A DNA stretch of 34,490 nucleotides, from NCBI RefSeq assembly GCF_011038965.1, contig NZ_JAAKEB010000002.1, forward strand, positions 1-34,490. The letters are read 5' to 3'. Of the stretch, positions 2,222 to 34,381 are shown one piece after another. This stretch comes from Adlercreutzia sp. ZJ141. Lineage in GTDB: Bacteria; Actinomycetota; Coriobacteriia; Coriobacteriales; Eggerthellaceae. The position numbers and the translations under genes are program-made. Under the pieces are notes generated by a model. It had not been told where the DNA came from and did no database searches. It saw only the letters and a list, made by a program, of their open reading frames with translations. Position 1 is the first letter of the stretch. Each line of letters begins with the position of its first letter.

Positions 2222-3085
2222 ATGGCGGATAGGGACGAGCGGAAGGCTCAAGCGGCCAAGCACAGCGCGTTGATGAGAGGTGCGTTTGCAAGCGATACGG
2301 AAGCGACGGTTTCCGCAGCGGTGATCTACGAAGATGGCGAAGGCCGTGAACTCGCGGTGCCGGAGGCTGATAATGACGCCACTGAGGTTGTGGTGACGAC
2401 AAGCTTCGTTGTCGATGCGGTTTACCGCGAAGGGAAGGGGAAGACGGTTGTTGTTGATCCGGCGGCGTTCACCCGACCTGGCGGCGCGTACGAGGACGGT
2501 GCGTTCGGCCCCGAGCAAGTGTTGTGCTCGCAGAGTAATTTGTATCAGGTTCTGTGCGGCATCAAGTCTTTGTATCATGATGCGAATCGCAGCTATCGGT
2601 GCGGGCAGCTGTTCACGGATCGTGCTGCATACTTGCCGAATGTGGCGTTCTCTCTTGGTGGCGAGGTTCGCAATGTCGATGTGATTGCGATCGCCGAGCC
2701 GCTGCGTGCTCGTGCTATCGAGAATCATCGATCGGAGCAGGAGTGTGATCAGGCTATCGCAAACCGTGTGGAGGCTTTGCTTCGCATAGCCGTTGCAAAT
2801 AACTGCGAAACCTTAGTGTGTGGCGCGTTCGGTTGCGGGCGTCTTGGGTATGAAGCGTCGCGCGTTGTTGAGTTGTTCCGCGCGTGGATGGAACAGCATC
2901 CTGGCGCGATCGCCCATGTAGTATTCGCAGTTCCGCGTGTTCACTTTGATGCCTTTAACGATGTTTTCGGTTCGCATGAGGTCGAAGAAGACAAGTCTGC
3001 CGCAGTCGAGCGTACCGACGAAGAAGACGATGATGAGTTCGATGTGTCGACTATCGAGCTTCCCGAAGGGGTTACCTTGCGCTAG
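2222..3085 (+). CDS. Microbial PARG-like macrodomain protein (TIGR02452/DUF2263 family)
   Basis: The 287-residue protein matches the pattern of the TIGR02452/DUF2263 family. These are macrodomain proteins related to bacterial poly(ADP-ribose) glycohydrolases, which remove ADP-ribose from proteins. Family elements seen are PGGAYEDGAFGPEQVLC (86-102), SNLY, a following YLPNVAF segment, and GAFGCGRLGYE in the C-terminal half. The start is the ATG at 2222, preceded by GGGAGG; an in-frame TTG at 2207 has no such site. In the usual GGG...QEE catalytic motif this protein has GGA (87-89) and PEQ (97-99), so the second glutamate, the catalytic one in characterised enzymes, is Gln99. The C-terminus ends in an acidic tail. 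It is the first of four closely packed genes. Family placement is good; activity is doubtful. Confidence 0.78.
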   Translation: MADRDERKAQAAKHSALMRGAFASDTEATVSAAVIYEDGEGRELAVPEADNDATEVVVTTSFVVDAVYREGKGKTVVVDPAAFTRPGGAYEDGAFGPEQVLCSQSNLYQVLCGIKSLYHDANRSYRCGQLFTDRAAYLPNVAFSLGGEVRNVDVIAIAEPLRARAIENHRSEQECDQAIANRVEALLRIAVANNCETLVCGAFGCGRLGYEASRVVELFRAWMEQHPGAIAHVVFAVPRVHFDAFNDVFGSHEVEEDKSAAVERTDEEDDDEFDVSTIELPEGVTLR

Positions 3086-3106
3086 ACGAAGCTGGAAGGG
3101 GAGGCT

Positions 3107-3844
3107 ATGGCAGAGGAACTGAATCGGCAAAAACCAAGCGAGCAAGAGTTGAAAAGCTACTACGAAAGCTTGCCTGTGGAAGGCGGCTTTGCGAGTGCGT
3201 GTCGCATGGTGCTTCCCGCCGACGAGCTTCGTGGTAAGCGCGTACTAGATGTTGCGTGCCGGAAGGGGAAGGGCGTCTACAAGCTCAGTGAGCTCGTAGG
3301 GCCTGATGGCTGGGTGATTGGAGTCGATTGGGATTCGCATCGCCTCGACAGTGCGCGCGCGGGTGCGTCGGCCGCGCTTGAGCGCAGTGGGTACGTGAAG
3401 TCAAACATGGAGTTTCGCCAAGGCTTCCCGGAAGACCTTCGCTCGGCGGGTGTGATAGACGCTTCGGTTGACGTGGCGTACGTGAACAGCAGTGTCACGC
3501 TTTTCTTCGATCAGAGGCGCACCATCTTTGAACTCTTTCGCGCGCTTGTGCCTGGTGGATTGCTGGTGATGGAGACGGTGTTTGCGGTGGCTGGGGAAGG
3601 TGCCGTGTCTGATCGCGAGGCGATTGTGGCGTGTGCCCGCAGTCTTGGTAACAGTATTCAAGCTGCGCGCACGGCAGATGAGGTATTTCGTTGGTTGCGC
3701 GAGGCGAGTTTTAAGGTAATCGATGTGGTTGAATCGTACGAAGTTGATCCGGCGCGCGGTTGCACGCCAGATCATGCGGTGGCAACTGTCTCGAATGATG
3801 AGGCTGTACGCTACGAAGCGGTTGTTATTCACGCGAGGTGCTAA
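3107..3844 (+). CDS. Class I SAM-dependent methyltransferase
   Basis: The 245-residue protein has a Rossmann-type methyltransferase fold pattern. Motif I is RVLDVACRKGKGVYKLS (about 45-61), followed by an acidic end of strand two in VIGVDWDSHRLDSAR, an Asp-rich motif near DASVDVAYVNSSVTLFFDQ, and LVPGGLLVMETVF. The glycine loop is unusual: DVACRKGKG instead of DxGxGxG, although the Lys-Gly-Lys-Gly part keeps two glycines. The overall look recalls the arsenite-methyltransferase-like group, but I see no conserved cysteine triad, so the substrate is unknown. It begins 21 nt after the PARG-like gene with GAGG upstream of the ATG, and the K+ channel gene begins at the very next base after its stop. 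It is therefore almost certainly in the same transcript. Confidence 0.75.
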   Translation: MAEELNRQKPSEQELKSYYESLPVEGGFASACRMVLPADELRGKRVLDVACRKGKGVYKLSELVGPDGWVIGVDWDSHRLDSARAGASAALERSGYVKSNMEFRQGFPEDLRSAGVIDASVDVAYVNSSVTLFFDQRRTIFELFRALVPGGLLVMETVFAVAGEGAVSDREAIVACARSLGNSIQAARTADEVFRWLREASFKVIDVVESYEVDPARGCTPDHAVATVSNDEAVRYEAVVIHARC

Positions 3845-4882
3845 GTGATGGGTACTGCCTTCGAACAAAGCGCTTCTTTGAAGCAGCGCATGTACGTTGC
3901 GCTGAACGACTTGCCGCGCGCACACGGTTGGTTTCGGGTGTTCGGCGGTGCGCTGCTTATTCTGATAGCGGCTAATGCGCTATTGGTTGGGGTTCCTGAA
4001 GATGCGGGTTCGGGGTTAGAGCGCTCGTTTGTGCTCGCACTCAGCGTTGCGTCAACAGCTCTCTTTGGCGTGGAGTACGTTTTGCGCTTATGGACAGCTG
4101 ATATAGCTTATCCGGAATACGGTGCTGTTCGCTCGCGTGTTCGTTATGCGCGTTCGCTTATGGGAATTATCGACCTGCTGTCGTTTCTGCCCATGCTTCT
4201 CGTGTGGGCTCATCCCGAACTGGCAGCGCTCAGCGATGCCGTTCGCGTTATTCGCTTGGTGAGACTGGTCAAGCTGACTCGCTACATGCTGGGCATGAAA
4301 ACCATAGGGCGGGTAATTACGAAATGTTCTCGCGAACTGATTGCGGCGTTCATGGTGATGGGGCTTTTGTGGGTTGCATCGAGTGTTCTCATGTACGAGG
4401 CCGAGCATGCTGTGCAGCCCGAGCAGTTCGATAGTGTTTTTACCGGCTTGTACTGGGCGATGACAACTATGACAACCACGGGTTATGGTGACCTTGCGCC
4501 GATAACACCGCTGGGTCGTCTGATTGGCGTTGTGGTTATGGCGCTGTCCATTGGGGTAGTTGCCATTCCTGCGGGCATTTTCTCTGCGGGGTTCGTTGCG
4601 GAGTTTCGTACACGCGACGACCAGGAAGAACGCGAGGTGCGTGATGCGCTTGCCGACAGTTCAGCTTCTGCTATGCGTGATGAGTCTTCCGAAAACGTCA
4701 GTAAGGTTGGGGACGTCGGGATCGGCGAATGTGCTGGAGTGGCCAGTGGTGCTGAGCGCGCCGGGAACTCTGATGGTGCTGGCGAGCTTGATTCTAAACG
4801 GGATGTCAGCGCACACATGTTTGAGGGAAAGGCTGTGAAACAGTCTCATAATTCTACTTCTGAACAGGACTTTCAATGCTGA
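3845..4882 (+). CDS. Voltage-gated-type K+ channel, six transmembrane segments
   Basis: The 345-residue membrane protein has six hydrophobic segments and a pore loop. The selectivity filter TTTGYGD is at 210-216, followed by the S6 helix. The S4-like segment AVRVIRLVRLVKLTRY carries regularly spaced arginines and lysine, as in voltage sensors of Kv/KvAP-type channels. The C-terminal 90 or so residues are hydrophilic, acidic and Ser-rich, with no recognisable ligand-binding domain. Translation may start at the GTG at 3845 or the adjacent ATG at 3848; GAGG at 3836-3839 serves either. The gene abuts the methyltransferase and overlaps the ClC gene by 7 nt, implying coupled translation. The role would be K+ flux across the cytoplasmic membrane. 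Confidence 0.88.
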   Translation: MMGTAFEQSASLKQRMYVALNDLPRAHGWFRVFGGALLILIAANALLVGVPEDAGSGLERSFVLALSVASTALFGVEYVLRLWTADIAYPEYGAVRSRVRYARSLMGIIDLLSFLPMLLVWAHPELAALSDAVRVIRLVRLVKLTRYMLGMKTIGRVITKCSRELIAAFMVMGLLWVASSVLMYEAEHAVQPEQFDSVFTGLYWAMTTMTTTGYGDLAPITPLGRLIGVVVMALSIGVVAIPAGIFSAGFVAEFRTRDDQEEREVRDALADSSASAMRDESSENVSKVGDVGIGECAGVASGAERAGNSDGAGELDSKRDVSAHMFEGKAVKQSHNSTSEQDFQC

Positions 4883-6198
4883 ATCGTATCGCAAAGAGAA
4901 CCATCTACATTCTTGTCACGATTATGCTCGGAGCGGTGGCTGGTGCCGTGTGCTGGGTGTTCTTCTTCCTGATGAACAACGGTATCGCTTTGGTTTGGGA
5001 TACGTTGCCGAATGCTGTTTGTCCTGGGCAGGTGTGGTGGCCGTTGGCTGTGTGTTTGGTGGGCGGGCTTGTCGTCGGCCTTTTCCAAAAGCGTTTCCCG
5101 GGTCAACCTCGGGAAATGGATGAGGTTATGGCCGAGGTAAAGGCAACCGGTCGTTATGAGTACGGCAACATGGGCGTGGGGTTTGTGGGGGCGCTCATTC
5201 CGCTTCTATTTGGCGGTAGCCTTGGTCCGGAAGCGGGACTGACCGGCGTTATCGCAGGTCTTTGCACGTGGGTGGGCGACCGTCTGAAGTTCCTTGGCAA
5301 GGAGTTTCGCGAACTTTCGTCGGTAGGTATTGCTGCTGTGCTTACGGCAACGTTCGACGCGCCGCTGTTCGGTCTTGCTGTTCCTGTGTTCGGCAGTGCC
5401 GAAGGGCCTGTTGAAGACGAACCTGTGTTGGCGCCTAAGCCTCTTAAGATGGCGGTGTACCTGATTGCTATCGCTAGTGCCGTGGGCACAATGATGGGGC
5501 TTGGCTACCTGTTGGGAGGAATGGGCGGTCTGCCGCGTTTTTCGGGAATTAGTATGGGAGGCTTTGAGCTTGCGCTACTGGTGCCGTGCGCGCTTGCCGG
5601 CGCTTGCGTTGGGTGGTTGTATCATGCTGCCGGCGCTCTCGCTGGGCGCACGTCGAGTGCGATGGGGGATCGTCCTATTGTGAAGGCGCTGGTGGCTGGG
5701 CTGTTTTTGGGGTGTCTAGGCATGGTTTTGCCGTACACCATGTTCGCTGGCGAAATTCAGGCTGAGGAATTACAGACAACATGGACAACCATCGGTGCCG
5801 TTGCTCTGATTGCGACTGCGCTCCTGAAGCCGTTCACGCTGCAATTCTGCTTGAAGCTTGGCTGGCGCGGCGGGGCCTTCTTCCCGGTGATTTTCTGCGG
5901 CGTATCGCTTGGTTACGGTATTGCCTTGATTACGGGGGCAAACCCTGTGTTCTGCCTGTGTGCATGCACCGCTGGTGCACTCGGTATGATGATGCGCCAG
6001 CCGTTAATGGCGGTTTTGCTGCTGTTCATGTGCTTCCCTGTGAAAGGGGTGTTTGTGATGCTGATCGCTGCGGTGATCGGCTCGGCGATTCCTGTTCCAG
6101 CAGGTTGGGTTGCAAAAAAGGAGCGCAAAGCAAAGGGCCTCAAGGCAAAAGGATCCAAGACAAAGGCATCCGACACACCCGATATGCTTGAGGGGTAA
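4876..6198 (+). CDS. ClC-family chloride channel/transporter
   Basis: The 440-residue polytopic protein has a ClC layout. GGSLGPEAG (113-121) sits where ClC proteins have GREGP. GWRGGAFFP (329-337) matches the second anion-binding loop, GxFxP. Long hydrophobic helices fill the rest. The gating/proton glutamate of ClC exchangers (the E in GREGP) appears to be Leu116, although Glu119 two residues after the GP may substitute. I do not see a CBS domain. The last 35 residues are a Lys-rich tail with KAKG/KTKA repeats. The ATG overlaps the stop of the K+ channel gene (ATGCTGA), so the two are made together. It may balance charge during K+ movement; that is inference. Confidence 0.82.
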   Translation: MLNRIAKRTIYILVTIMLGAVAGAVCWVFFFLMNNGIALVWDTLPNAVCPGQVWWPLAVCLVGGLVVGLFQKRFPGQPREMDEVMAEVKATGRYEYGNMGVGFVGALIPLLFGGSLGPEAGLTGVIAGLCTWVGDRLKFLGKEFRELSSVGIAAVLTATFDAPLFGLAVPVFGSAEGPVEDEPVLAPKPLKMAVYLIAIASAVGTMMGLGYLLGGMGGLPRFSGISMGGFELALLVPCALAGACVGWLYHAAGALAGRTSSAMGDRPIVKALVAGLFLGCLGMVLPYTMFAGEIQAEELQTTWTTIGAVALIATALLKPFTLQFCLKLGWRGGAFFPVIFCGVSLGYGIALITGANPVFCLCACTAGALGMMMRQPLMAVLLLFMCFPVKGVFVMLIAAVIGSAIPVPAGWVAKKERKAKGLKAKGSKTKASDTPDMLEG

Positions 6199-6451
6199 GA
6201 GGAGCGGCAGCTCGTCAGGTGTGACTGATCTCGTTGTCCTCGTCTGTTACCTCGCAATCTCTTTCGCGGACAATTCTGCTTTTATCGGGATAAGAGATCG
6301 CTAAACTTGAAAGTAGCAGCGCAGTGCATAAAGAGAATGTTGCATTTTCTTAATTTTCCCTTATAGCTAGCTGGCCCATGGGTAGTTACGGCTTCGACCG
6401 TAGCACCATAAACAATGAAGCAGGTGGCTCTGTTCTTCGCTTGCCTTGGCG

Positions 6452-6457: not shown

Positions 6458-6489
6458 CAGCAAAGACTGGCAACTGAAAGGTGGTGCCC

Positions 6490-8268
6490 ATGGCAAGCAG
6501 TGCGGGCGTGTACGAAAACGGTGTGTTTCGCAAGGGCCATGTGCGCATTTCTGACTTGGCAGGGTGTAAGCGTCTGCCTGTGGGTGTGAGCGTGTTTCCC
6601 ATGGTAGCCGAGCATTCGGTTTTCATCGACAAAACCCTGCTCATTGCCGACGTGTTATCGCAGCCCGGTGCCATTACGCTGTTTTGCCGTCCGCGGCGGT
6701 TCGGCAAATCGCTCAATCTCAGCATGCTCCAGTCGTTTCTTGAGATTCCGTCGGTGAGCGATCCGTTTGCAATAGATACCGAGTCTCTGTTCCGCGGTCT
6801 TACCATTTGGGATGTCGAAGAAGGCCGCTACCAGCGTGATCACGCCGCTTATCCCGTGGTGAGGTTGTCTTTCAACAACGCAAAGGGACTCGATTGGCCA
6901 AGTGCGAAAGGTATGATTCGCGAGAGCGTAGTTGCTGAGTATGGAAGACACTACTACCTGCTCGATGACGGCTCCCTTAATCCGAGCGATCGGGAAGTGT
7001 TCACACGTATTGCAGAGAGAAGGGCCTCTGACGAGGAGTTTTCCTCATCGCTTCTCATTCTTACACGTTTGTTGTCGGCTTATCACGGTCGTGGTACCGT
7101 GGTTCTGATTGACGAGTACGATGCGCCGGTTATGGCTGGCTACACCCATGGTTACTACGACGAGGTGGTGTCGTTTCTTAAGGGGCTACTTACAGGCGCA
7201 CTGAAGGATAATCCCGCATTGGCCTTTGGCGTGCTCACGGGGGTACAACGCATCTCGAAGGAATCTATCTTTTCTGATCTGAACAACCTTACCGTGAACA
7301 CCTCGCTTTCGGTGGCGTCGGAAGAGCGCTACGGGTTCACGCAGGAAGAAATCGAGGCGCTCGCGGAGTATTTGGGAAGCGAAGGCGGTTTGAGCGAGGC
7401 GCGCCAATGGTATGACGGCTACCGCTTCGGCTCGGTGGATGTATACAACCCATGGAGTGTTCTCAACTACTTCAAAAGTGGATGCGTTGCCGATGTGTAC
7501 TGGGGAAATACCTCGGGAAATGGTGTGCTTGGCGACATGATTCGCGATGGTAGCAACGAGACAATGTCTGACCTTTACCGTCTTCTGGAGCCCGGCGGCG
7601 TTGTTTTCGAGCCACTGGACACCTCAGTGGTGTTTCCTGATATCGGCATCAAACACGAAGCGCTTTGGAGCATGCTGTATCTTGCCGGCTACCTTACGAC
7701 AGACGATACTGATTTCCCCAATAGTACCAATTGCGTGCGTGCTTTGCGCATACCGAACAGGGAAGTCGCGCAGCTTTATCGAAGCGAAGTTGTGGAGCGA
7801 TTCTCACGAGTAGCAGGCGGACGTCGACGGTTGCGCAGCCTGCATTTCGCCTTTGCGAACGGGGATGCGGATACACTGACCTTTGAGCTGGAACGCATCC
7901 TGTCAGATAACTCCAGCTATCATGACCTTACGCGCGAGACGTCGTACCATATGCTCATGCTGGGGCTTCTCTTCGGTATGTCGGGGTATTGCGATCCGGT
8001 ATCGAATCGCGAGGCGGGGCACGGACGCTTCGATGTGAGAGTTGTGCCCCTTAATGCCGATCGCGACCCGCTTATTACGCTGGAAATCAAGTGGGTTCGA
8101 CCTGCTGATTCCAAATGCAGCGTGCTCGATACGTTGGCCGAAACGGCACTTTCCCAAATTGACGAGCATGCGTATGAGTCGGGAGTGGAAATCGGCTCAG
8201 CCGGCGTACTGAAGTGGGGTATCGCTTTTTCAGGCAAGCGCGTTGCCTGCGCATGTCGCACACATTAG
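6490..8268 (+). CDS. AAA-ATPase-like / PD-(D/E)XK nuclease family protein (PF09820 + DUF1703 type)
   Basis: This 592-residue protein matches a family widespread and often multicopy in gut anaerobes, of unestablished function. The N-terminal part has the family's SVFIDKTLLI segment and the Walker-A-like CRPRRFGKSLNLSML (66-80). The Walker B motif LIDEYDAPV is centred on Asp208. The middle carries RQWYDGYRFG and VYNPWSVLNYF. The C-terminal region, with GRFDVRVVPLNADRDPLITLEIKW, fits the DUF1703 PD-(D/E)XK nuclease-like domain (Asp then Glu-x-Lys). The start is the ATG at 6490, preceded by AAAGGTGG; a GTG at 6481 lies inside that site. Membership is clear. A defence or mobile-DNA role is often proposed for such proteins but is not shown here. 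Confidence 0.82.
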   Translation: MASSAGVYENGVFRKGHVRISDLAGCKRLPVGVSVFPMVAEHSVFIDKTLLIADVLSQPGAITLFCRPRRFGKSLNLSMLQSFLEIPSVSDPFAIDTESLFRGLTIWDVEEGRYQRDHAAYPVVRLSFNNAKGLDWPSAKGMIRESVVAEYGRHYYLLDDGSLNPSDREVFTRIAERRASDEEFSSSLLILTRLLSAYHGRGTVVLIDEYDAPVMAGYTHGYYDEVVSFLKGLLTGALKDNPALAFGVLTGVQRISKESIFSDLNNLTVNTSLSVASEERYGFTQEEIEALAEYLGSEGGLSEARQWYDGYRFGSVDVYNPWSVLNYFKSGCVADVYWGNTSGNGVLGDMIRDGSNETMSDLYRLLEPGGVVFEPLDTSVVFPDIGIKHEALWSMLYLAGYLTTDDTDFPNSTNCVRALRIPNREVAQLYRSEVVERFSRVAGGRRRLRSLHFAFANGDADTLTFELERILSDNSSYHDLTRETSYHMLMLGLLFGMSGYCDPVSNREAGHGRFDVRVVPLNADRDPLITLEIKWVRPADSKCSVLDTLAETALSQIDEHAYESGVEIGSAGVLKWGIAFSGKRVACACRTH

Positions 8269-8387: not shown

Positions 8388-10046
8388 TTAGGCGTTGTTT
8401 TCATCCGTTTGGTCGTTTTGCGGCCTGTATTCATTTGTCTTTTCGTTCAGTTGCCGAAGCACTCTGTCCCTTTCTTTGTTTATGAGCCCAATGAGCTTTT
8501 CCCTATGAGTACTTCGATCGGTGTTTTTGTCGGTGTTCAGGAGGGTATCATTTACGGTGAAAGACTCGTTTTCGCTGTTCAGACACTCCCAGAGCTCAAG
8601 TTCTTTTTCGTTTGCTTCTGCCGAAGCGGGTTCCTTTGACGGAGCGTTGGGGTCGGTGGAGATCATCTTTGACAAATATTCATTATGGTTCTGATAGAGC
8701 TTATCAATGTACTGAGCGTACTTGTCTTCGAGTCCAGACTTGTCAACGGGATCTATAACAAGTTCTCTGAACTTGTCTAGTGCCTTTTGCTTGCCGAGGG
8801 GTTTGATGATCTTGGTAACTCTACCTCCGAAGCCGTCGTACCAATCGAGATAAGAGTCAAGATTGTTGATGCACTGATTATAGTATTCCTCGATCTGATC
8901 CTTCGGGTTTATTTCTTTGTCCTGAGTGATTCGGTCGAACTCTTCTCTGTAATCACTGCTTGTAGTTTGCCGTTCCTCATCCTGCTCCTTAAGCTTATCG
9001 ATTTCTTTCATTCCGTCTGGGGTCATGCGCAAGGTACGTTTTTGTAGATCATCAATGATTGTATCAACGGCTGTATGTTCAGCTACTGCAGTAGCCTTTG
9101 AGATTTCGTATTCGAATCCTAAGAAGAGAAGCGCCAAAACAAGCCATATTCCGGCGATTACCAGAAAGTACCTTTTCATCGTCGGTTGGCTGTTGTTAGC
9201 ATATTCTTGCTCGTCTACTGGAAGCAGTTGGAACACACTTTTCGCTTCTTGCCAGTTGAGAAGGCAAAAGCTAAAAATGTTCACTAAGCCTAGGAAGACG
9301 GATAAACATAGGACAAAGCGAACGACTATAGCGATTGCCAAGGATCCTACTGCAATTTGATTCAAGCCGTAGGTAACCAGAGTGTCGGTGAAAGACGAAA
9401 GCTTGTCGGCCTCGTTTAATAATGCGCATGAGGAAATATCAAACTCCCTAAGAGGGTTGCGCAGGGCTTCCTCGAGAGTTGCACTGTCGCCCCAAGGTGC
9501 TTGTACCGGCATGAACGCATAAATGATGGAGAGCACGATGACCGTTATGAAAAAACTCCATTTTATGGCGCTCGCCTTATAAAACTTCGGGGCAAGCTCT
9601 TTCTTTGCTGCACGTTGTGCAAACAAGAAAACTATGTAATAGAAAGGCACGGCAAGCCAAACGAGCAGCCATTCAAGATTGTCCCATTCGGGGGCTTCCA
9701 AAACAAAGAAGAAACCTGAGAAGAGAAAGAAGATAAAAAAGCCCAGGAGCCACACGAACCATTTTCTGTTAAAACTCGATAACTTGCCTTTCTCGTTGAA
9801 TCGGAGCTGCCTGTGAAAACGATTAGTTACGACGTAGTACATTGCGCCTATTGTCGAAGGAAGTGCATAGGCTAAGAAGATGAAAGGGAATGAAAAAGAT
9901 GGAAAATTGGGAGCAAACTTGCCGATAAGTGTCAGCGCAGCAACGGCAATGATTGCCTTGATGAAGTAGTCGCGTGCATCTTTGATAAAGGATTGCTCGA
10001 CAACGATATTTTTCCCGATTGTTTCATTGTCACGTTCGCCGTTCAA
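8388..10046 (-). CDS. Unrecognised multi-pass membrane protein with long charged C-terminal domain
   Basis: I do not recognise a family. The 552-residue product has about seven hydrophobic segments in its first 305 residues, for example around 29-47, 50-70, 94-114, 122-142, 158-178, 226-260 and 283-303. A hydrophilic C-terminal domain of roughly 245 residues follows, rich in Glu, Lys, Asp and Gln, with coiled-coil-like stretches (TIIDDLQKRTLRM, KEIDKLKEQDEE). No enzymatic motif is visible. It appears to start at a TTG (10046) with AAGGA 9 nt upstream; the ATG 10 nt further up is out of frame. Base use is more AT-rich than in flanking housekeeping genes, suggesting acquisition. It stands alone, convergent with the AAA-ATPase-like gene. 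A signalling or stress-sensing role would be speculation. Confidence 0.72.
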   Translation of the reverse strand: MNGERDNETIGKNIVVEQSFIKDARDYFIKAIIAVAALTLIGKFAPNFPSFSFPFIFLAYALPSTIGAMYYVVTNRFHRQLRFNEKGKLSSFNRKWFVWLLGFFIFFLFSGFFFVLEAPEWDNLEWLLVWLAVPFYYIVFLFAQRAAKKELAPKFYKASAIKWSFFITVIVLSIIYAFMPVQAPWGDSATLEEALRNPLREFDISSCALLNEADKLSSFTDTLVTYGLNQIAVGSLAIAIVVRFVLCLSVFLGLVNIFSFCLLNWQEAKSVFQLLPVDEQEYANNSQPTMKRYFLVIAGIWLVLALLFLGFEYEISKATAVAEHTAVDTIIDDLQKRTLRMTPDGMKEIDKLKEQDEERQTTSSDYREEFDRITQDKEINPKDQIEEYYNQCINNLDSYLDWYDGFGGRVTKIIKPLGKQKALDKFRELVIDPVDKSGLEDKYAQYIDKLYQNHNEYLSKMISTDPNAPSKEPASAEANEKELELWECLNSENESFTVNDTLLNTDKNTDRSTHREKLIGLINKERDRVLRQLNEKTNEYRPQNDQTDENNA

Positions 10047-10683: not shown

Positions 10684-11253
10684 ATGACTGATGACATTAC
10701 ACCTCAGAGAATTAGGGATATAAGAAAGCGCTATGGTTTGTCTCAACAGGCATTTGCCCGCATTCTTGGTATTGGGCCTGCAAGCATTGCCCGCTACGAA
10801 AACGGCACCAAGCCGACCAAGGCCAACGCCAATCTTATTCGAGCAGCAGAAATACCCGCATTTATGGCCGGTTGCCTAGAGCGCGACGGAGAGGTGCTTA
10901 GCGCCAAGCAGCGTGCCAACATAGAGAAAGTCATTTACGCAGAAATAACCTTTAACAAGGAAGGCGACGTTATGGGTATAAACGACATCTACGAACTCAC
11001 CCTTCAGCAAGAAGTACTGAACGAGAAGGCGGCTGCAATTCTCGGCGATATCATCAACGGCCAGCTTAAAGCGGAAAGCGAAGGAAATAAGGCCCTTGCT
11101 CTTGTATGGGAAGATATGCTCGTACAGCTGTCTCTTCTCAAACCAACCATCGCGTCAATAGAAAACCTGAACCACGATGATTTAACACGTATTAACGGCG
11201 AGCTTGATTGCCTGCAATCGCTATGTGCACGCACCTTGCGGAGAGCTGCGTAA
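10684..11253 (+). CDS. HTH (XRE/MqsA-type) antitoxin of a zeta-toxin module
   Basis: The 189-residue protein begins with a helix-turn-helix domain, with ITPQRIRDIRKRYGLSQQ and ARILGIGPASIARYENG (about residues 5-41), of the MqsA/XRE kind. A C-terminal helical region of about 120 residues follows with no named motif. Its gene ends in TAATG, sharing one base with the zeta-toxin start, so it is the likely antitoxin. It would both repress the operon through the 10633-10674 palindrome and neutralise the kinase, as PezA does for PezT. It is longer than PezA (158 residues) and I do not see clear similarity in the C-terminal part, so the toxin-binding mode is inferred from context. GAGAGG precedes the ATG. 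Confidence 0.78.
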   Translation: MTDDITPQRIRDIRKRYGLSQQAFARILGIGPASIARYENGTKPTKANANLIRAAEIPAFMAGCLERDGEVLSAKQRANIEKVIYAEITFNKEGDVMGINDIYELTLQQEVLNEKAAAILGDIINGQLKAESEGNKALALVWEDMLVQLSLLKPTIASIENLNHDDLTRINGELDCLQSLCARTLRRAA

Positions 11254-12056
11254 TGACGAAGGATTTGGCTTCATTCTCGGAAGACGAGCTTTCGCGACGG
11301 CTTGCAATTGAGATAAAAGCCGCTCTTCTGCCTGCACCTGTTGCACCAAGTGCTCATCCCCGTGCAATTCTGCTCGGCGGTCAGAGTGGTTCAGGGAAAA
11401 CAATGCTGCATCAGATCTACCGGCAAGAATTCGTGCACAACGTGATTGTTATCAACGGAGACGAGTATCGCGCAGCACATCCGCGTTTTCGTGAACTACA
11501 GAGCTCCTTCGGTGATGCATCGGTTAACTATACCGCTTCCTGGGCAGGCCGCATGACAGAAGCTTTGGTTGAACATCTCTCGCGCTTGAGATATAACCTC
11601 ATCATTGAGGGAACGCTGCGAACAGCCGAGATTCCTATGAGGTCGGCTAAGCTGCTGCGTGAACGAGGTTATGAGGTGTCGTTAGCCCTTATGGCAGTGA
11701 AGCCGGAAATATCGCTTATCAGCTGTCAGCTGCGTTATGAGGAAATGCGTCTGGCGGGAACCATGCCCCGCGCCACCGATCCAGCTCATCATAACAAGAC
11801 AGTCGATCAACTTGCGAACAATCTCCGCATCCTGGAGCGAAGTGGCCTGTTCGAGGAAATCTATCTCTACACCCGCAAGCAGGAGTGCATCTTCCCGCGC
11901 GAAGGTCTTACGGGCACCGCAAGTGAAACACTCGAACAAGTGCTGTTCGGCCCCTGGAATCCTGATGAACGAAGCCACTACGAGTATCTGAAGGCGAAAC
12001 GAAAACATCTGCAAGAGCGTAAGAGCAACGGGGGATACAAGCATAACGATCCGTAG
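11253..12056 (+). CDS. Zeta-toxin family kinase (PezT-like)
   Basis: This 267-residue protein fits the zeta toxin family, which phosphorylates UDP-N-acetylglucosamine and so blocks peptidoglycan synthesis when not held by its antitoxin. The Walker A motif is GGQSGSGKT (42-50). The family's NGDEYRAAHP follows, and later EGTLRT, the equivalent of the second substrate-binding segment. Conserved basic residues occur in the following helices. The start is the ATG that overlaps the antitoxin stop (TAATG), which enforces coupled translation; an upstream in-frame start at 11208 lies inside the antitoxin gene and is less likely. The frame is open and complete, so the module may be active. Confidence 0.85.
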   Translation: MTKDLASFSEDELSRRLAIEIKAALLPAPVAPSAHPRAILLGGQSGSGKTMLHQIYRQEFVHNVIVINGDEYRAAHPRFRELQSSFGDASVNYTASWAGRMTEALVEHLSRLRYNLIIEGTLRTAEIPMRSAKLLRERGYEVSLALMAVKPEISLISCQLRYEEMRLAGTMPRATDPAHHNKTVDQLANNLRILERSGLFEEIYLYTRKQECIFPREGLTGTASETLEQVLFGPWNPDERSHYEYLKAKRKHLQERKSNGGYKHNDP

Positions 12057-24372: not shown

Positions 24373-24987
24373 TTACACGTTGCTGACCTGCACTGCGTCG
24401 TCGCTTACCCATGTGGCATACTTGGGCGAGAGCAGGTACACCGTAGTCGGCCCATTACCCGTGTCGGCTAGTTGATGACGATCTGCCTCGTCGTAGGCAG
24501 CGATGGCTTTAGACGCATCGCTTTCGGGATCGTCGAGGTCGCCGTAGAAACGCGCCTCGCCACAGCAGGCCTTCACGCATGCGGGCAGCTCGCCCTTGTC
24601 GGTAAGGGGCTTACACAACGTGCACTTTCCTACCACACTCTCGGCCTCGTTCAGGGCACGCACGCCATAGGGGCATGCGCTCAGGCACGACTCGCAACCG
24701 ATGCAGGTCTCCTGATCGATGAGTACAATACCCGTTTCTTCGTCGCGGTAGGAAGCGCCGGTTGGGCACACCTCCACGCACGGCGCGCCGGCGCACTGCT
24801 GGCACATGGTGGGCAGCCAGTACTGTTCGATATTGGGGAAGGTGCCGTTCGGTCCTACTGGTGTCACGCGACTCCAGTACTGCCCTAGGGGCACGTCGTT
24901 CTCCTGTTTGCACGCCGCCTCGCAACCGAAGCAGCCGATGCAGCGGTTCAGGTCGACAACAATAGCATTACGCGTCATAGACGGCAT
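24373..24987 (-). CDS. Four-cluster [4Fe-4S] ferredoxin subunit (DmsB-like)
   Basis: The 204-residue protein has four cysteine groups for four [4Fe-4S] clusters: CIGCFGCEAACK, CQQCAGAPCVEVCPTG, CIGCESCLSACPYG and CTLCK...CVKACC. This is the DmsB/NrfC/PsrB plan, which passes electrons to the molybdopterin subunit. The ATG at 24987 has GGGAGG 5 nt upstream and overlaps the end of the catalytic-subunit gene by 20 nt; a second ATG at 24978 is an alternative. No signal peptide is seen, so it would be exported bound to its partner. No DmsC-like or cytochrome anchor gene adjoins it, so the quinol link is not encoded here. Confidence 0.9.
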   Translation of the reverse strand: MPSMTRNAIVVDLNRCIGCFGCEAACKQENDVPLGQYWSRVTPVGPNGTFPNIEQYWLPTMCQQCAGAPCVEVCPTGASYRDEETGIVLIDQETCIGCESCLSACPYGVRALNEAESVVGKCTLCKPLTDKGELPACVKACCGEARFYGDLDDPESDASKAIAAYDEADRHQLADTGNGPTTVYLLSPKYATWVSDDAVQVSNV

Positions 24988-27706
24988 AACCTCCTCCCGT
25001 TTCGTCGGTCACCTCAGGCAGCCACGGCGTGAATTCCTTCGGCTCGGTCCACACGCCCTCAGGCGCGCTGTCGGCCTTCGTCACCTTCACAGTAAATCCG
25101 CGTAGCGTATAGGTGCCGAACTCCGGATTGTACGGCTTATCGTTCTTGGTCAGTATGTTTACATTCATAACCTTCCAAGCACGCGACGGATCGTCGGAGT
25201 CAAGCAGCTCTGGGTTCCAGAAGCGCTCTTGGTAGATTACTTTGGGTGCGATGCCTTCGGTGATGTGAATGCGGCCCTGAATCTTGCCGCGGCGGCTTTC
25301 CACGAAGCACCAGTCGCCTTCTTCCACGCCGATCTCGGCGGCCGTCACCGGATTCACCCAGGTCTGCGGCACGGGGTACATCTCGCGCATCCAAGGAACG
25401 TTGCGCAGCGTGCCGTGGTGATACATTGGCACGCGACCCTCGGTGAGCACGTAGGGGAACTCGGTGTCGGTAAGCGGTGATTCTGCAGGTTCTTCGTAGT
25501 GTGGCAGCGGCAGATAGTCAACACTGGCCGGGGGCAGCACGTAGTTGTCCCAGAACGATGCACCAGACGGACCACCCGTGCGGCCAGTGATGGTCATAGC
25601 TTCGGCATAGGGCTCCATGCGGTGCGAGGTGGTGGCGAAGCCTGTCGGCAGGCCTGTTTCCGGGTTCTCCTTCTCGTAGCTTTCGTAGCTTGAGGTGATC
25701 CACTCTTCCATAGGCATGAACTCGGCCGGCAGCTTTTCGCAGCATTCGTCCCAGCTCCACTCTTCGCCGAACGACTTGCTCATGAATGCGGCCAGATAGC
25801 CCTTATACTCGTCGTAGGTCTTCCAGTAGGGGCCGGCGGCACCACAGTTCTCGGGGTCAAACGCCATCTGAGCCTCTTTGTGACCACGGTCGGCTAGAGC
25901 GGATACGATCCACGACCAGATGAGCGTTTCGTCTACGTGCTCGAAAGTATGAACCACGTCGCGGCGGATAAGCCAAACGTTGCAGCGGTCGGCACCGTAG
26001 GCAGTTTCGAGCCACTCGGCCGTGGGCAGAATCATGTCGGCAAGCTCGATAGAAGTTGTCGTGGGATACATATACATGTGCACGATGAACTTCATCTTCT
26101 TCATAGCCTCAAGGAAGGTGGACGAGTCGCCGATCATAGCAAGTTTGTTGCCGGAACGGTCGATCCACATTTCGGGCTGATAGGGCTCGCCGGTGTTCAT
26201 GGCCTCCATGATGGTGGGAATGTGCGAGGCCATCCAGTAGTTCAGACCCTTGTGCTCGATGATACCCAGACGGCGGTTTACTACTTCCTCGGTTGGCGAG
26301 AGCGGTGTGGGGCCAAACAGGTTGAACGGGAATAGGAAGTAGGTGCCGAGCGACTGGTTCTTGCGGCTCTGGATAGTGTTGCCCTGATGGCATGCGTTAC
26401 CCATGAGCGACTCGATGATGGTTACGCCCTCGGGTACCTGAGCCGACTGCGCGTACTGGTCGGTAGCAACGCCCAAGCCGATGCCAGAGTGCGGAGATCC
26501 TTCGCAATAGAGCTTAATGGCCTCCTCGATGGCGTTCGCTTCGCACCAGGTGATTTCGGCAGTGTGCTCAAGCGTCCACTCGGCACAGTTGTCCCACACG
26601 GCGCGGAATGCAGTGCGGCTCTTTTTGCCGTTTACTTCGAATTCGCCGTCGAGTACAGGAGCGATGCTGTCGTCTTGTGGCCAAGGCATGGCGGCAGGTG
26701 CGTTGGTGTTTGAGTCCCACACTACGTAGTCAGTTGCCTCGCCGATGCCCAGCTCGTCGGCATGGTAGAGCAGCATCGTTTCCTCGTTGATGAGGAAGGG
26801 CAGGTTCGTCCATTTCACACACCATGCCTCATCGTAGAGTTTGTTCTCGATGATGTAGCGGGTCCAGCCATTGGTCATAGCCACGTCGGTACCGGGACGA
26901 ATGGGTAGCCACACATCGGCCTTGGCGGCGTCGGGAGTGAAGCGCGGGTCGATGACCACGGTCTTCATCCCCTTCATGCGCAGGTCGTTTACGGCACGCC
27001 CGCCGGAGGGAACGTGGCTTTGTGACGGGTCGGTGCCCCACATGACAAGACAAGAGGGAACCGTTTCGGTGTAGTAAATCTCGCCTACGGTAGAGTCGGC
27101 GATAGATGTGTCGTTGCAGCCGTTGAGCATAGGTTGAGTGCACATGCGGGGCAGGTAGCACTGGGCGCAGCCCGGCTCGAAGAAGTTACCGCCGCCAAAT
27201 GCCTGTAGGAAGCGATGCAAGCCGAAGAACTGCGGGTTTCCGCCGCCACCCGTGGAGATAACGAGCTTCATGGGATCTTTCTCGTAGATTTCCATGAGGT
27301 TGTCGGCGATGGTGTCGATGGCTTCTTTCCAGGAGATACGCTCCCATTCGTTACCACCGCGCTCTCCCACGCGTTTCATGGGGTATTTCATGCGATTGGG
27401 ATTATAGAGTGCCTGAATAGCAGCCAAACCCTTCGCGCACACGCGGCCTTTCGACATGGGATCGATCGGGTCGCCTTCGATCTTGATAACGCGCCCGTTT
27501 TTCACATGCACCAGTACACCGCAGTTTGAGATGCATGCGCGGCACGAGGAATGAACAATTTCCACCCCCTCTTCACTTGATTGGTCGGCACCCGTGTCAG
27601 CCGGCTTTTGCTGCTCCATATTGGAACAGCCCGTCGCTGCGCACGCGGCAGCCGCAGCTCCGGCCACCATGAGAAAATTACGGCGCGTCAACGTAGCTTG
27701 ACTCAT
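24968..27706 (-). CDS. Tat-exported molybdopterin oxidoreductase catalytic subunit (DMSO reductase superfamily)
   Basis: The 912-residue protein opens with a twin-arginine signal (TRRNFLM, 7-13), a hydrophobic stretch, and Cys27 in AATGC, which resembles a lipobox. A [4Fe-4S] motif follows (C55, C58, C62, C90; Cx2Cx3Cx27C). Then come the molybdopterin-guanine-dinucleotide domains, with segments such as WGTDPSQSH, VVIDPRFTPDAAKADVWLPIRPGTDVA (key: IDPR, RPGTD) and a C-terminal beta domain (NPVTAAEIGVEEGDW). By alignment to NapA-type enzymes, the residue at the molybdenum-ligand position is probably Cys183. The start has AGGAGGAAA upstream. The substrate cannot be deduced; related enzymes in Eggerthellaceae act on sulfoxides, S/Se/N oxides or catechols. 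Export with the DmsB-like partner is expected. Confidence 0.92.
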   Translation of the reverse strand: MSQATLTRRNFLMVAGAAAAACAATGCSNMEQQKPADTGADQSSEEGVEIVHSSCRACISNCGVLVHVKNGRVIKIEGDPIDPMSKGRVCAKGLAAIQALYNPNRMKYPMKRVGERGGNEWERISWKEAIDTIADNLMEIYEKDPMKLVISTGGGGNPQFFGLHRFLQAFGGGNFFEPGCAQCYLPRMCTQPMLNGCNDTSIADSTVGEIYYTETVPSCLVMWGTDPSQSHVPSGGRAVNDLRMKGMKTVVIDPRFTPDAAKADVWLPIRPGTDVAMTNGWTRYIIENKLYDEAWCVKWTNLPFLINEETMLLYHADELGIGEATDYVVWDSNTNAPAAMPWPQDDSIAPVLDGEFEVNGKKSRTAFRAVWDNCAEWTLEHTAEITWCEANAIEEAIKLYCEGSPHSGIGLGVATDQYAQSAQVPEGVTIIESLMGNACHQGNTIQSRKNQSLGTYFLFPFNLFGPTPLSPTEEVVNRRLGIIEHKGLNYWMASHIPTIMEAMNTGEPYQPEMWIDRSGNKLAMIGDSSTFLEAMKKMKFIVHMYMYPTTTSIELADMILPTAEWLETAYGADRCNVWLIRRDVVHTFEHVDETLIWSWIVSALADRGHKEAQMAFDPENCGAAGPYWKTYDEYKGYLAAFMSKSFGEEWSWDECCEKLPAEFMPMEEWITSSYESYEKENPETGLPTGFATTSHRMEPYAEAMTITGRTGGPSGASFWDNYVLPPASVDYLPLPHYEEPAESPLTDTEFPYVLTEGRVPMYHHGTLRNVPWMREMYPVPQTWVNPVTAAEIGVEEGDWCFVESRRGKIQGRIHITEGIAPKVIYQERFWNPELLDSDDPSRAWKVMNVNILTKNDKPYNPEFGTYTLRGFTVKVTKADSAPEGVWTEPKEFTPWLPEVTDETGGGYAVYDA

Positions 27707-27754
27707 ACGCGTTTCCTCCTCCTTTTCCTCTCTTCTCGTTACCTTGCGCGACTG

Positions 27755-28402
27755 TTATTCGGCCAGGATCGCTCGTCCTGTGTCGGTTACAGTCCACGCT
27801 TTTCCATTCCACGCGAGCGCGCCGATAGATTCCAGCGAGCCCGTGAAATAGCTTGCATGGAGGCTGTCTATGCCGCGGGCAGCCTCGGTTTCGAGCATGT
27901 CGGCACATTTAAGGGTTTCTTGCAGCTCACGAGTGGTTTTTGGAGTTGCGGCACAAGCGGTAAGTACTGCAAGAAAAGCGCCCCTGCGCTGGGGATAAGG
28001 TGCTATCAAGTGATTAAAAGAGCGTTCCTCGCGCACATCGGCTGCCACAGCAATACCTTCGGGTGTGGATGTGAGCGTGACAGATACAACAGCATCCTCG
28101 GCCACATCTTCGTCGGCTTGCAGATCTTCGAGTGTTCCGGTATAGGGCTCGCCGTCGACGAAAACGCACTTGCGCAACGCGCCACTTCGCACGAGCGCGC
28201 CAATGATGCCAGCGGCGCTCTGAATCTGGCTTTGAGAGGTTCGCTGAATCTCACAGAACGCGCATGCTTCTTCTTCATCTTGCTCGTCGCAGCAGTACTC
28301 GATGAGCGCGCAGCAGATGTTTCGATACGCCGGATTTGCCTCTATCATACGTGAGGTGCGCTTGTATGTTTCGGGGTCAAAGCCGTCAGAGTTGTGCTCC
28401 AT
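27755..28402 (-). CDS. Tandem winged-helix-like protein of the molybdoenzyme cluster
   Basis: I do not recognise a named family. The 215-residue protein seems to have two small helical DNA-binding-like domains. The first spans about residues 15-75 (YRNICCALIEYCC, QSQIQSAAGIIGALVRSGAL). The second spans about residues 150-213 (TTRELQETLKC, GIDSLHASYFTGSLESIGALAWNGKAWTV with a wing-like end, TDTGRAIL). A beta-rich linker joins them. An acidic, Cys-containing stretch (EYCCDEQDEEEACAFCE) in the first domain could bind metal. It lies 48 nt upstream of the catalytic subunit and in the same direction, so it is the first gene of the operon. A regulatory or assembly role is inferred from position. Confidence 0.6.
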   Translation of the reverse strand: MEHNSDGFDPETYKRTSRMIEANPAYRNICCALIEYCCDEQDEEEACAFCEIQRTSQSQIQSAAGIIGALVRSGALRKCVFVDGEPYTGTLEDLQADEDVAEDAVVSVTLTSTPEGIAVAADVREERSFNHLIAPYPQRRGAFLAVLTACAATPKTTRELQETLKCADMLETEAARGIDSLHASYFTGSLESIGALAWNGKAWTVTDTGRAILAE

Positions 28403-28467
28403 GATAATGTCCCTCCCCGCCTAAAAAACGACTGTTTATCGGCCGCGTATGGGTATTAGCCTGATTT

Positions 28468-28480
28468 CGTTAGCTTAACG
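28468..28480. promoter_or_regulatory. Candidate regulator site upstream of the molybdoenzyme operon
   Basis: CGTTA-GCT-TAACG is a short inverted repeat (5-bp arms, 3-bp centre), about 66 nt upstream of the first gene of the operon, in the 208-nt gap after the LuxR-type gene. Its size suits a LuxR-type dimer. A repeat this short can occur by chance. Confidence 0.3.
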
Positions 28481-28610
28481 GGGAAGTGATGCCGTACGAA
28501 TCGTTCATCATGGATGAAACCGACGTATTTTTCGCCCTCACTCAAATTGCATGAAGGAAGCGACCTGGGAAAACTCTGAAATTGGTGAAGGATGATCGAG
28601 CGAGGTTTCC

Positions 28611-30224
28611 CTAGCTATGTGTGCACTCGCTGCCCGTGCCACCCTCGCGTTCGATGAATTCCATCAGCTCACGGCGGCTGTGTACGTCGAGCTTTACGTA
28701 AATGCGGCGGACGTGGGAGCGTACCGTATTGAAGGAGATAAACAGCTCGTCGGCGATAGCTTTGGTGTCTTTGCTGAGTGCCAGCAGCTCGAGTACGTCA
28801 GCCTCGCGTTGCGACAGACCGTGATCGACAGCCAGCACGGCGCACAAGCGTCGTAGCGACGCTTGGTATCCGCCGAGTGCCGAGGGGATGGGTATCTCTG
28901 TCGGCAGAGCTGGTGTTAGTTTGTAGGTAGTGGGAGCGGAAAGGGCAGGGGTGGGCGAGGTTGTGACGGATGTAGCAGATGCGATGCTGAGAGTGTCATC
29001 AACATCCGAATCACGCACTGCAGGCTGCATGAGCGCGCGCACGTCGTCCAAACGCAGCAAGAACAAGCTCGCCACCACGCATAAGATAATGGAAGCCGCC
29101 ATAATCAAAGAAAACGAGCGGGGAGACACTTCAATGGCATACAAAAGCGAACCTGCACCCATGCCGGCGGTCGCCCCTAAACACGCCGCCCCAAAACCGA
29201 TACCAATTACTTGTACTGCCAAGCGTCCCGAACGAAATGATACACGGCAGAGCAGACCCCACAAACATAACAGCGTCACGCCGAAGAGTACCGAGGATAC
29301 GTCTCCCATGATCACCGGCGTCACATTCAGTAAAGCCAGCACCAGCACTGTGAGCACCGAACCGAGTAGAATCCCGTAAAACAGCACTCCGAATACCGTA
29401 TGGCGTGGTGCTATCCACGCCATAACCACAATAGCCATAGCTGCTGCGATGAGTCCGAGTCCTACAAGGCATCGCGATGTGGCGAACTGACTCAGTTCGA
29501 TCAGATTAGGATAGTAGCCTCGTGTGAGGCTCAGTAAAAACAGCAGCATGACGATGTAGGCAATCAAGCGTGCCAATTTCGTTGAGATACGAGGGTATTC
29601 AAGTGAACGGTCAGCATCCGTAAGGGCGAGCGAAGTTCCCTCACTTACGTCGAGTGACAAGAGGAAGGCTGCTAAGGGCAAAAGCAGTACGAGTACGACA
29701 ACTGCCAGTGATCGTAGTTCGCACAGGAGCAGCATTGTATCTAACGCATACACAAGTACACCAAGCATGAGTGCGCATCCCATGCCCACCAGCGCCGCGC
29801 GCGTATCCACTTCCGAAAATGCAATAGCTACGCGTAGTGCAATAAGTGCCGTTACGCACCCAGTGAGCACTGCCGCCGTGAAGAATAGTGGTGTGGGCAG
29901 CATGGGTCCGTTTAAAACCACAAGGGTGGCCGCTGCGCCTATACACGATGCCCACGACAAGGGGCGCTCACCTAGCAGGCGACGCATGGTCCACTGCGGG
30001 AAAAAGCTCAGTGCGATGAGTGTCACACCCAAGGAGAGTGTCGATATCACAAAGGCACCTGACGTCGCTTGGCGTGGGTCGATGTCAGCGGGAAAGAAGG
30101 CATCGGTACTGTAGATAATGGTGATCCACGCGATCCAAAAGCTTGCGCCGATAACACCGAAAGTGGGTACACGCCCCATCGAGTGCATCAGGCGCTCTTC
30201 TCCGAAGCCTAACTCTTCTCTCAT
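28611..30224 (-). CDS. Membrane-bound LuxR-type transcriptional regulator
   Basis: The 537-residue protein has about twelve hydrophobic segments over its first 420 residues, a Pro/Ser/Thr-rich linker, and a C-terminal LuxR helix-turn-helix: LSQREADVLELLALSKDTKAIADEL then FNTVRSHVRRIYVKLDVHSRREL. Regulators of this build are numerous in Eggerthella and relatives, often next to molybdoenzyme genes they activate in response to the substrate. The ATG at 30224 is preferred because GGAGAG stands upstream; an in-frame start 26 codons earlier has no such site. It precedes the operon at 28402-23485 in the same direction, so it probably senses the enzyme's substrate at the membrane. The ligand is unknown. 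Confidence 0.88.
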   Translation of the reverse strand: MREELGFGEERLMHSMGRVPTFGVIGASFWIAWITIIYSTDAFFPADIDPRQATSGAFVISTLSLGVTLIALSFFPQWTMRRLLGERPLSWASCIGAAATLVVLNGPMLPTPLFFTAAVLTGCVTALIALRVAIAFSEVDTRAALVGMGCALMLGVLVYALDTMLLLCELRSLAVVVLVLLLPLAAFLLSLDVSEGTSLALTDADRSLEYPRISTKLARLIAYIVMLLFLLSLTRGYYPNLIELSQFATSRCLVGLGLIAAAMAIVVMAWIAPRHTVFGVLFYGILLGSVLTVLVLALLNVTPVIMGDVSSVLFGVTLLCLWGLLCRVSFRSGRLAVQVIGIGFGAACLGATAGMGAGSLLYAIEVSPRSFSLIMAASIILCVVASLFLLRLDDVRALMQPAVRDSDVDDTLSIASATSVTTSPTPALSAPTTYKLTPALPTEIPIPSALGGYQASLRRLCAVLAVDHGLSQREADVLELLALSKDTKAIADELFISFNTVRSHVRRIYVKLDVHSRRELMEFIEREGGTGSECTHS

Positions 30225-30355
30225 TCTTAATCTCTCCGTGGGAATTCTCCATGATCTTTCAAGTATACGAGGATGGTCACCGGATGCAAGGGTCGGTAGC
30301 ATTTCGGGACCTCAAGACGCCACCTTGCAAATGCAGGACAAGCCTTAGTCAGTGT

Positions 30356-32177: not shown

Positions 32178-32329
32178 CTTCGCCTATGAGATGAGTGCAT
32201 AGACTGCTCGTTTTGGCTCCGAGATTGTAGTTCCGAAGCTTGGTTTTGTTGATTGATTTTGGGGATCATACCCGCTCGGACGCTGCTTACAGGAAGGGGC
32301 GGCCGCAAGGTGAAAGGAAGCCGCTGACC

Positions 32330-34381
32330 ATGATCATGCAGCTTGAACATATATCGAAGTCGTTCGGAGCGCGCACGCTGTTCTCCGACGTGATGCTTCG
32401 CCTCGAGGAATACGATCGCTTGGCGCTGGTGGGACCAAACGGCGCGGGCAAGACTACGCTGCTCAACATTATATCGGGACATGAAGATGCCGATGAAGGT
32501 CACGTGCTGCTGGCGAAGGGCGCGCGCGTGGGCTACCTGGAGCAGGAAGCCATCGAGATGCCCGATCGGGCCATCTTCGAAGAAGTATTGTCGTCTCAGG
32601 TGGAGATTCTTGCCGCCGAACGCCGTTTGCAAGAGCTCGAACAGGGCCTCGGCGACAACCCCACGCCACAGCAGCTGGCTGCGGCGGGCCGCGCCCGTGA
32701 CGCGTACGAGGTGCTAGGCGGCTACCAAATTGAAGCAAAGGTGCGCAGTGTACTGTTCGGTCTGGGCTTTAAGGAAGATGACATGCGTCGGGCGACCACC
32801 GAGTTTTCCGGCGGCTGGCAGATGCGCATTGCGTTGGCGAAGCTGCTCATTCGCAATCCCGAGGTTCTGCTGCTCGACGAGCCCACGAATCATCTCGATC
32901 TTGAAAGCGTGAAATGGCTTGAAGGGTTTTTGCGCGGGTATTCTGGCACGGTGATCGTGGTCAGTCATGACCGCGCGTTCATGGACAACATGGTTGACCG
33001 TGTGGCAGAAATCGACAACGGCAAGGTAAACCTGTTCAAAGGCAACTACAGCGCTTACCTGAAGGAACGTTCTGCGCGTATTGAGCTTTTGCGTGCGAAG
33101 CGCACCAAGCAAATCGACGAGATGCACCACCTTGAGGCGTTTGTGGAGCGGTTCCGCTACAAGGCGACGAAGGCTCGCCAGGCGCAAGAGCGCGCCGCCC
33201 GTTTGGAGAAGCTACGCGTTGAACTGGTGGAAATTCCCGAAGAGAAAAAAACGGTGCATTTCAACTTCCAGCAACCTCCCCGCACGGGCGACATGGTAGT
33301 GCGTGCAACGGGCTTGGTGAAGCGCTTCGGAGATAAAGTGGTATACGACGGGCAGGACTTCACCATGTACCGCGGCGATAAGATAGCGCTGGTGGGTCCG
33401 AATGGTGCTGGCAAGTCGACGCTGCTGAAGATGGTTGCCGGGGTGCTTGCACCCGATGAGGGCACCATCGAGTACGGCGTGCACGTGAGCAAGACGTACT
33501 ACGCGCAGCATCAGCTGGAAGAGCTACATCCGGGTAACACGGTGTTTGAAGAGCTCGACCACGTGGCTCCCGGTTGGACCATATCGCAGGTGCGCACGCT
33601 GTTGGGCGCGTTTTTGTTCGTGGGTGATGCGGTGGACAAAAAGGTGAGCGTGTTGTCGGGTGGCGAGAAGAGCCGTTTAGCGTTGGCGAAGATGCTTGTT
33701 GCGCCGCGTCCCTTGTTGTGCTTGGACGAGCCTACGAACCACCTGGATATTGCGAGCGCAGACATTCTGGAGCAGGCGCTTTCCGTCTTCGAGGGAACAA
33801 TCTTGTTCATCACGCATGACAGGCACCTTATTCGCAGCGTGGCGAACCGCATTGTTGAGGTGACGCCGGGCAAGCTTGCGGTGTATGACGGCGACTACGA
33901 CTACTATTTGTACAAGAGTGGGCAGCTTGCTGGCGAGGCCCCGAAGGAGCAGTCGCTGGTTGACGAGGTGATGGGCGCGGCGTCTTCGCCGTCTGCGTCA
34001 TCGGGCGGGGCGAAGGACGCTCGCTCTGGAGTGGCTGGCAAAGACGTTCGCACCGGCACGGCGGGCAAGGGCAGCGCGCCGAAGACCAAGGAACAGAAGC
34101 GCCGCGAAGCCGAGGCGCGCAACCGCGCATATGCGGCACTGAAGAACCACAGGAAGCGCATTGCGCAGCTCGACGCGCGGATGGAACGCGACAATAAGCG
34201 CGTGGCTGAGTTGTTGGAACTGATGGCCGATCCCGACTTTTACATTAACGAGGATGCATCGAGCAATGCTATTGCCGAACACGCGAAACTGAAGAAGCGC
34301 TTGGCGGAAGCCGAGGAAGAATGGCTGCTGCTTACCGAAGAACTTGAAGAGGAAATGGCCCGTCAGGCGGAAAATGCGTAA
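32330..34381 (+). CDS. ABC-F family ATPase (Uup/EttA-like)
   Basis: The 683-residue protein has two ABC ATPase domains and no membrane segments, as in the ABC-F family that acts on ribosomes. The first domain has Walker [10 protein letters not shown] (34-42), signature FSGGWQMR and [13 protein letters not shown] charged interdomain linker follows ([20 protein letters not shown], the P-site tRNA interaction region). The second domain has Walker A near residue 355, [12 protein letters not shown] and [11 protein letters not shown]. The C-terminus has a low-complexity Ala/Gly/Ser/Lys linker and a coiled coil, as in Uup-like members. The ATG at 32330 (or 32336) follows GAAAGGAAG; an upstream in-frame start at 32240 adds residues not seen in the family. 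A housekeeping translation factor is more likely than a resistance gene. Confidence 0.9.

Follow-up and report, generated by a model that had tools for sequence, protein, structure and literature searches.

Four genes lie in tandem on one strand in Adlercreutzia sp. ZJ141, encoding a PARG-like protein, a methyltransferase, a K+ channel and a CLC-family protein, and the question is whether they serve a common function. The original prediction had taken them for a single signal- or stress-responsive system, possibly anti-phage. We analysed the run within a stretch of 34,490 nucleotides (hereafter the window), which belongs to contig 23 of a 2.29-Mb, 57-contig genome. The reading that we favour, with a probability of roughly 0.6, is that the run is probably one transcript and not one machine: its core would be the coupled K+ channel and CLC protein, while the PARG-like protein and the methyltransferase would act elsewhere. 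Little is known about the proteins that act together with K+ channels or CLC proteins in bacterial physiology; a recurrent, overlapping gene pair from a group of common gut bacteria offers a direct and testable hypothesis, namely that K+ and Cl- fluxes are balanced.

The four open reading frames are all on the plus strand and are spaced by +21, 0 and -7 nt, exactly as originally read (Table 1). The distance between the methyltransferase and the K+ channel genes is 0 nt when counted from GTG 3845 and 3 nt from ATG 3848. The PARG-like frame starts at ATG 2222, a second in-frame candidate being TTG 2207. Shine-Dalgarno-like motifs, as read from the sequence, stand upstream of ATG 3848 (GAGGTG) and of ATG 4876 (AGGA), and the latter, the start of the CLC gene, falls within the final codons of the K+ channel gene. 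A terminator scan found no convincing terminator between the four genes; 3' of the CLC gene (6266-6279) there was a weak stem of 5 bp with a T run, and the overall number of terminator-like sites was near expectation (11, versus 7.3 ± 3.0 in shuffled sequences). The promoter and terminator scans are compatible with a single transcript but do not demonstrate one. It is plausible, and probable, that all four genes share a transcript in the source species, and their adjacency on the same strand could entail co-regulation in the source genus.

Table 1. Features of the four-gene run, in window coordinates.
Feature	Position	Strand	Evidence
PARG-like macrodomain protein (microbial PARG)	2222..3085	+	PF10021 E 1.2e-9; TIGR02452 E 2.3e-30
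Degenerate catalytic loop GGAYEDGAFGPEQ	2480..2518	+	Alignment to D. radiodurans PARG 5zde
C-terminal tail LPEGVTLR, after acidic linker	3059..3082	+	Conserved in orthologues
SAM-dependent methyltransferase, ArsM-like fold	3107..3844	+	Methyltransf_31 E 4e-14
6TM voltage-gated K+ channel	3848..4882 (GTG 3845 = alternative start)	+	Ion_trans E 6.8e-30
S4 voltage-sensor basic residues R136, R139, K142, R145	4253..4282	+	Invariant in an alignment of 10 homologues
K+ selectivity filter TTTGYGD	4472..4492	+	KCNQ/Kv and family alignments
Overlap of K+ channel stop and CLC start, 7 nt	4876..4882	+	Translational coupling
Divergent CLC-family anion channel or transporter	4876..6198	+	Voltage_CLC E 5.7e-29; AF2 model
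E119 (in GPEAG), counterpart of the CLC gating glutamate by alignment	5230..5232	+	Invariant in 21 homologues

The third gene encodes a protein with the hallmarks of a voltage-gated K+ channel, i.e. a TxxTxGYGD filter and a repeat of basic residues in S4. It aligned to KCNQ channels from S1 to S6 (E 1e-28), and the S4 basic residues, the counter-charges E76 and D109 and the TTTGYGD sequence were invariant or nearly so in 10 homologues. It thus shares with the Kv/KCNQ channels six transmembrane segments, an S4 with four invariant basic residues and the TTTGYGD filter, but differs from them in being bacterial, in having a short acidic C-terminus without regulatory domains and in having a CLC partner.

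The fourth protein combines a Voltage_CLC domain with a predicted CLC fold and belongs on these grounds to the CLC family. Its AF2 model (pLDDT 77) matched CLC-ec1 over about 400 residues, with a Z of about 34. A single-sequence search with the protein matched no solved relative; its profile reached a CLC fluoride/proton antiporter. Profile alignment equated GPEAG with the GREGV of CLC-F, in a register that depends on a weak alignment, and E119 appears from this comparison to be the gating glutamate. An initial reading of the motif, with Leu in that place, was dropped, the CLC-F profile alignment having given a better register. In a likewise weak alignment, the helix-H stretch PLFGLAVPVFG contained no Glu as a counterpart of E203, the internal proton glutamate of CLC-ec1. 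The window protein has in common with CLC-ec1 the fold, the position of the gating glutamate and a proposed role in charge compensation, yet it is only about 16% identical and has GPEAG where the canonical motif is GREGP. A proposal by Iyer et al. (2002; cited in PMC9062700) is that the CLC-ec1 Cl-/H+ antiporters of enteric bacteria serve as an electrical shunt when cells resist acid. There the partner is an amino-acid decarboxylase system, whereas here it would be the genetically coupled K+ channel.

The pairing of a K+ with a Cl- pathway, which was part of the original prediction, recurred in relatives beyond chance. A K+ channel gene was the neighbour at 8 of the 44 CLC loci in the order, window included, whereas about 0.1 would be expected by chance under a rough model that assumes one to three K+ channels per some 2000 genes. 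The arrangement was not uniform: the K+ channel preceded the CLC gene in the window, L061, L062 and L078 and followed it in L063 and L064 (the last scored from an N-terminal piece of the K+ channel at a contig end), and a shorter K+ channel type (Ion_trans_2) was found 3' of the CLC gene in L065 and 5' of it in L154. In a tree of the CLC proteins, every case of a long K+ channel followed by CLC fell inside one clade of 14 rows, and the three other arrangements fell outside it. These placements make it likely that the association arose about four separate times; four independent adjacencies among 43 loci would have a P of ~1e-6, although the model is rough and takes no account of operons.

A search of GTDB r220 with an alignment of the K+ channel retrieved 46 loci, 43 of them from Coriobacteriia and nearly all from Eggerthellaceae. 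A CLC gene directly adjoined the K+ channel gene in L102, L103, L107, L110, L113 and L141. It was immediately 3' in Adlercreutzia sp. ZJ176 and ZJ473 and in the uncultured L107, L110 and L113, the last a Coriobacteriia genome of another family; in L141 the CLC gene came first. A phylum-wide draw of 198 genomes, searched for K+ channels other than those with PF07885 only, added one distant actinobacterial family (G284, L191), in which the frames of a K+ channel and of a CLC of this divergent type overlap. Stop and start overlapped by 4 nt (ATGA) in L102, L103 and L113, by 11 nt in L110 and by 14 nt in L191, and were separated by a 3-nt gap, without overlap, in L107. Coupled translation of the two channels had been proposed from the window, and this proposal gains from the recurrence of overlapping frames in relatives. 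A literature search of incomplete coverage did not find a description of a K+ channel-CLC operon.

We considered the possibility that the pair is part of a larger cation/proton module that includes a CPA2 protein (PF00999; Na+/H+ antiporter family) and mainly serves pH homeostasis, through K+/H+ exchange balanced by Cl-. In many relatives the gene next to this K+ channel is a CPA2 gene, and in one of them, the uncultured Coriobacteriia genome mentioned above, CPA2, K+ channel and CLC form a single overlapping run with CPA2 first (L062:4594-7896; L113:5833-9063). This neighbourhood points to a balance of cations, protons and chloride. Yet no CPA2 gene adjoins the pair in the window, and in other places the CPA2 and K+ channel genes are for the most part adjacent in divergent orientation, with CLC absent; in many other genera, the K+ channel has CPA2 and a YbjQ gene beside it, with no CLC gene. 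We regard membership in such a module as a tentative alternative, and on the whole an unlikely one.

It is less probable still that the four genes are adjacent by accident, the K+ channel/CLC pairing being accidental too and merely inherited. The two channel genes were unlinked in most genomes that have both (e.g. G003, G005, G007, G027, G031 and G041), which indicates that the pairing is not obligatory, and the confinement of the long-K+-channel-to-CLC cases to a single clade means that these may represent one inherited arrangement. Against an accident stands the recurrence of the pairing in reversed order, with another type of K+ channel and, with overlapping frames, in another family of the phylum.

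We infer that the pair forms a coupled K+/Cl- conductance that contributes to the balance of membrane potential and of turgor or pH. Depolarisation or a similar stimulus would open the S4-gated K+ channel, and the CLC protein, made together with it, would provide the path for the counter-anion. The net movement would then be of KCl, or of K+ against H+/Cl-, and not of charge, so that turgor, pH or membrane potential could be adjusted without a large excursion of voltage.

If the PARG-like protein and the methyltransferase belonged to the same system, they should accompany the channels elsewhere. Each protein was searched in 100 relatives, drawn from other genera of Eggerthellaceae and from other families of the order, and had a match in 34 (PARG), 59 (methyltransferase), 40 (K+ channel) and 42 (CLC) of these genomes. 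The PARG gene did not adjoin any of the other three in a single one of the 100, the closest approach being a PARG-CLC distance of 10 kb in G029. On gene maps scored by codon usage, with a gene caller that misses the window's own K+ channel, the PARG orthologues were lone genes whose neighbours differed from genus to genus. Neither a methyltransferase nor a PARG gene lay in the flanks (up to about 7 kb) of the K+ channel gene at any of the 46 GTDB loci, and in every other genome examined PARG and methyltransferase were linked neither to each other nor to the channels. The absence of the set from the 100 relatives and the 46 loci indicates that it is particular to the source genome or its genus. 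The PARG-like protein and the methyltransferase are probably unrelated neighbours of the channel pair, found beside the channels, among the genomes examined, only in the source genome; their genes would have been placed upstream of the channels in the source lineage. The original prediction had chosen neighbourhood conservation as its own yardstick, and the four-gene order was not kept between genera, so that at this level the prediction fails.

The PARG-like protein aligned to Deinococcus radiodurans PARG (E 6e-12), and a macrodomain (PF10021/TIGR02452) is present; the two-glutamate GGGx6-8QEE loop of active microbial PARGs is absent. In the loop GGAYEDGAFGPEQ, GGG..QEE has become GGA..PEQ, i.e. 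the second, catalytic glutamate is replaced by glutamine. Both glutamates of the canonical loop are reported to be essential (PMC4030884, PMC7050489), and bacterial PARGs mutated in the main catalytic glutamate have no activity on ADP-ribosylated RNA (PMC11833690). GPEQ was present in all 20 close orthologues, and those with a complete C-terminus also ended in LPEG[VI]T[LF]R; more distant PARG families had QEE or QEQ and ended in DDWR[KN]YL. LPEGVTLR occurs once in the source genome. D. radiodurans DRB0099, Thermomonospora curvata PARG and Streptomyces coelicolor SCO0909 have the macrodomain, the GAFGCG phosphate loop and the family in common with the window protein, which is set apart from them by GGA..PEQ in place of GGG..QEE and by its acidic linker and conserved tail. 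Structure prediction from the single sequence was poor (pLDDT 41). The loss of the catalytic glutamate, combined with the conservation of the tail, suggests that the protein is probably an ADP-ribose reader, which would bind ADP-ribose or ADP-ribosyl groups without hydrolysing them and use its C-terminal tail for docking to a partner. A PARG-like protein of this kind, spread over a clade, suggests a bacterial ADP-ribose reader, and its tail could be used to fish out the partner.

Two wider observations were made on this family. In all the Eggerthellaceae PARG-like proteins collected (A2, L002-L030), Gln takes the place of the catalytic Glu, and the versions in Coriobacteriia carry conserved short tails, of the LPEGVTLR or the DDWRKYL type, after an acidic linker.

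In sequence, the methyltransferase came closest to a domain that MoxR-like AAA proteins of relatives carry at the C-terminus, with about 50% identity. Fusions of MoxR and methyltransferase, 769-813 residues long and with a C-terminal Methyltransf_31 domain, were found in other Eggerthellaceae (L183:1005-3314, plus strand; L184:2559-5000, minus strand). The source genome has two MoxR-only homologues (C4 and C8), on other contigs, and the methyltransferase as a separate gene. Judged by sequence comparison, the window protein is a counterpart, encoded on its own, of the C-terminal domain in these fusions, from which it would have become detached. The fusions were not found described in a literature search of incomplete coverage. 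The protein shares the methyltransferase fold with the ArsM arsenite methyltransferases but lacks at least one of their conserved cysteines. The ArsM family has conserved arsenic-binding cysteines; of these C32 is kept, and the cysteine of NCVxNL is replaced by Ser (NSSVTL). The scores of the protein are far under the NCBIfam cut-offs.

PADLOC found no match for three of the four genes, and for the methyltransferase only a domain match to mad2. Neither a match of substance to a known defence component (PADLOC) nor a recurrent linkage to defence genes (100 relatives, 46 loci) was found, and the four genes are unlikely to form a shared defence system. The single stress-responsive or anti-phage system of the original prediction is not supported: in no other genome examined are PARG and methyltransferase linked to the channels, the PADLOC result is nearly empty and the PARG-like protein lacks the catalytic glutamate. 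An ADP-ribose-gated module, with the dead PARG as sensor, the methyltransferase as modifier of some target and growth arrest brought about by loss of K+ and Cl- through the two channels, would fit the tight spacing of the genes, the likeness of the PARG to a reader and not an eraser, and the toxin-antitoxin pair and AAA-ATPase/PDDEXK gene downstream, but is very improbable given that the set is absent from the other genomes examined, has no PADLOC match of substance and includes PARG orthologues that are single genes without common neighbours across genera and channels that are widespread, core-type genes of the family.

The coupled pair, which remains our preferred reading, may be extended to a bolder and rather doubtful proposal: that bacteria have in it a dedicated KCl conductance, which arose independently on several occasions, with two K+ channel types and in both gene orders, and through which anaerobic gut actinobacteria take up or shed salt electroneutrally, and that in the source genus it is controlled by the non-catalytic ADP-ribose reader.

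Other features of the window were noted as well. A 5S rRNA gene (Rfam RF00001) lies at 177-292, near the start of the contig, which therefore probably begins within an rRNA operon, just past its large rRNA genes. After the CLC gene and a gap of 282 nt comes the gene of an AAA-ATPase_like protein with a PDDEXK_9 domain (6481-8268), followed by that of a 552-residue membrane-type protein without match in Pfam, NCBIfam or PADLOC (8388-10046) and by the toxin-antitoxin pair, of the PezAT or epsilon-zeta type (10684-12056; HTH plus Epsilon_antitox, Zeta_toxin). A molybdopterin oxidoreductase gene lies close to a gene for a LuxR-type (GerE) regulator on the minus strand (24968-30302). At 32240-34381, a double ABC ATPase with an ABC_tran_Xtn linker (ABC-F type) is encoded, whose PADLOC matches are ATPase cross-matches.
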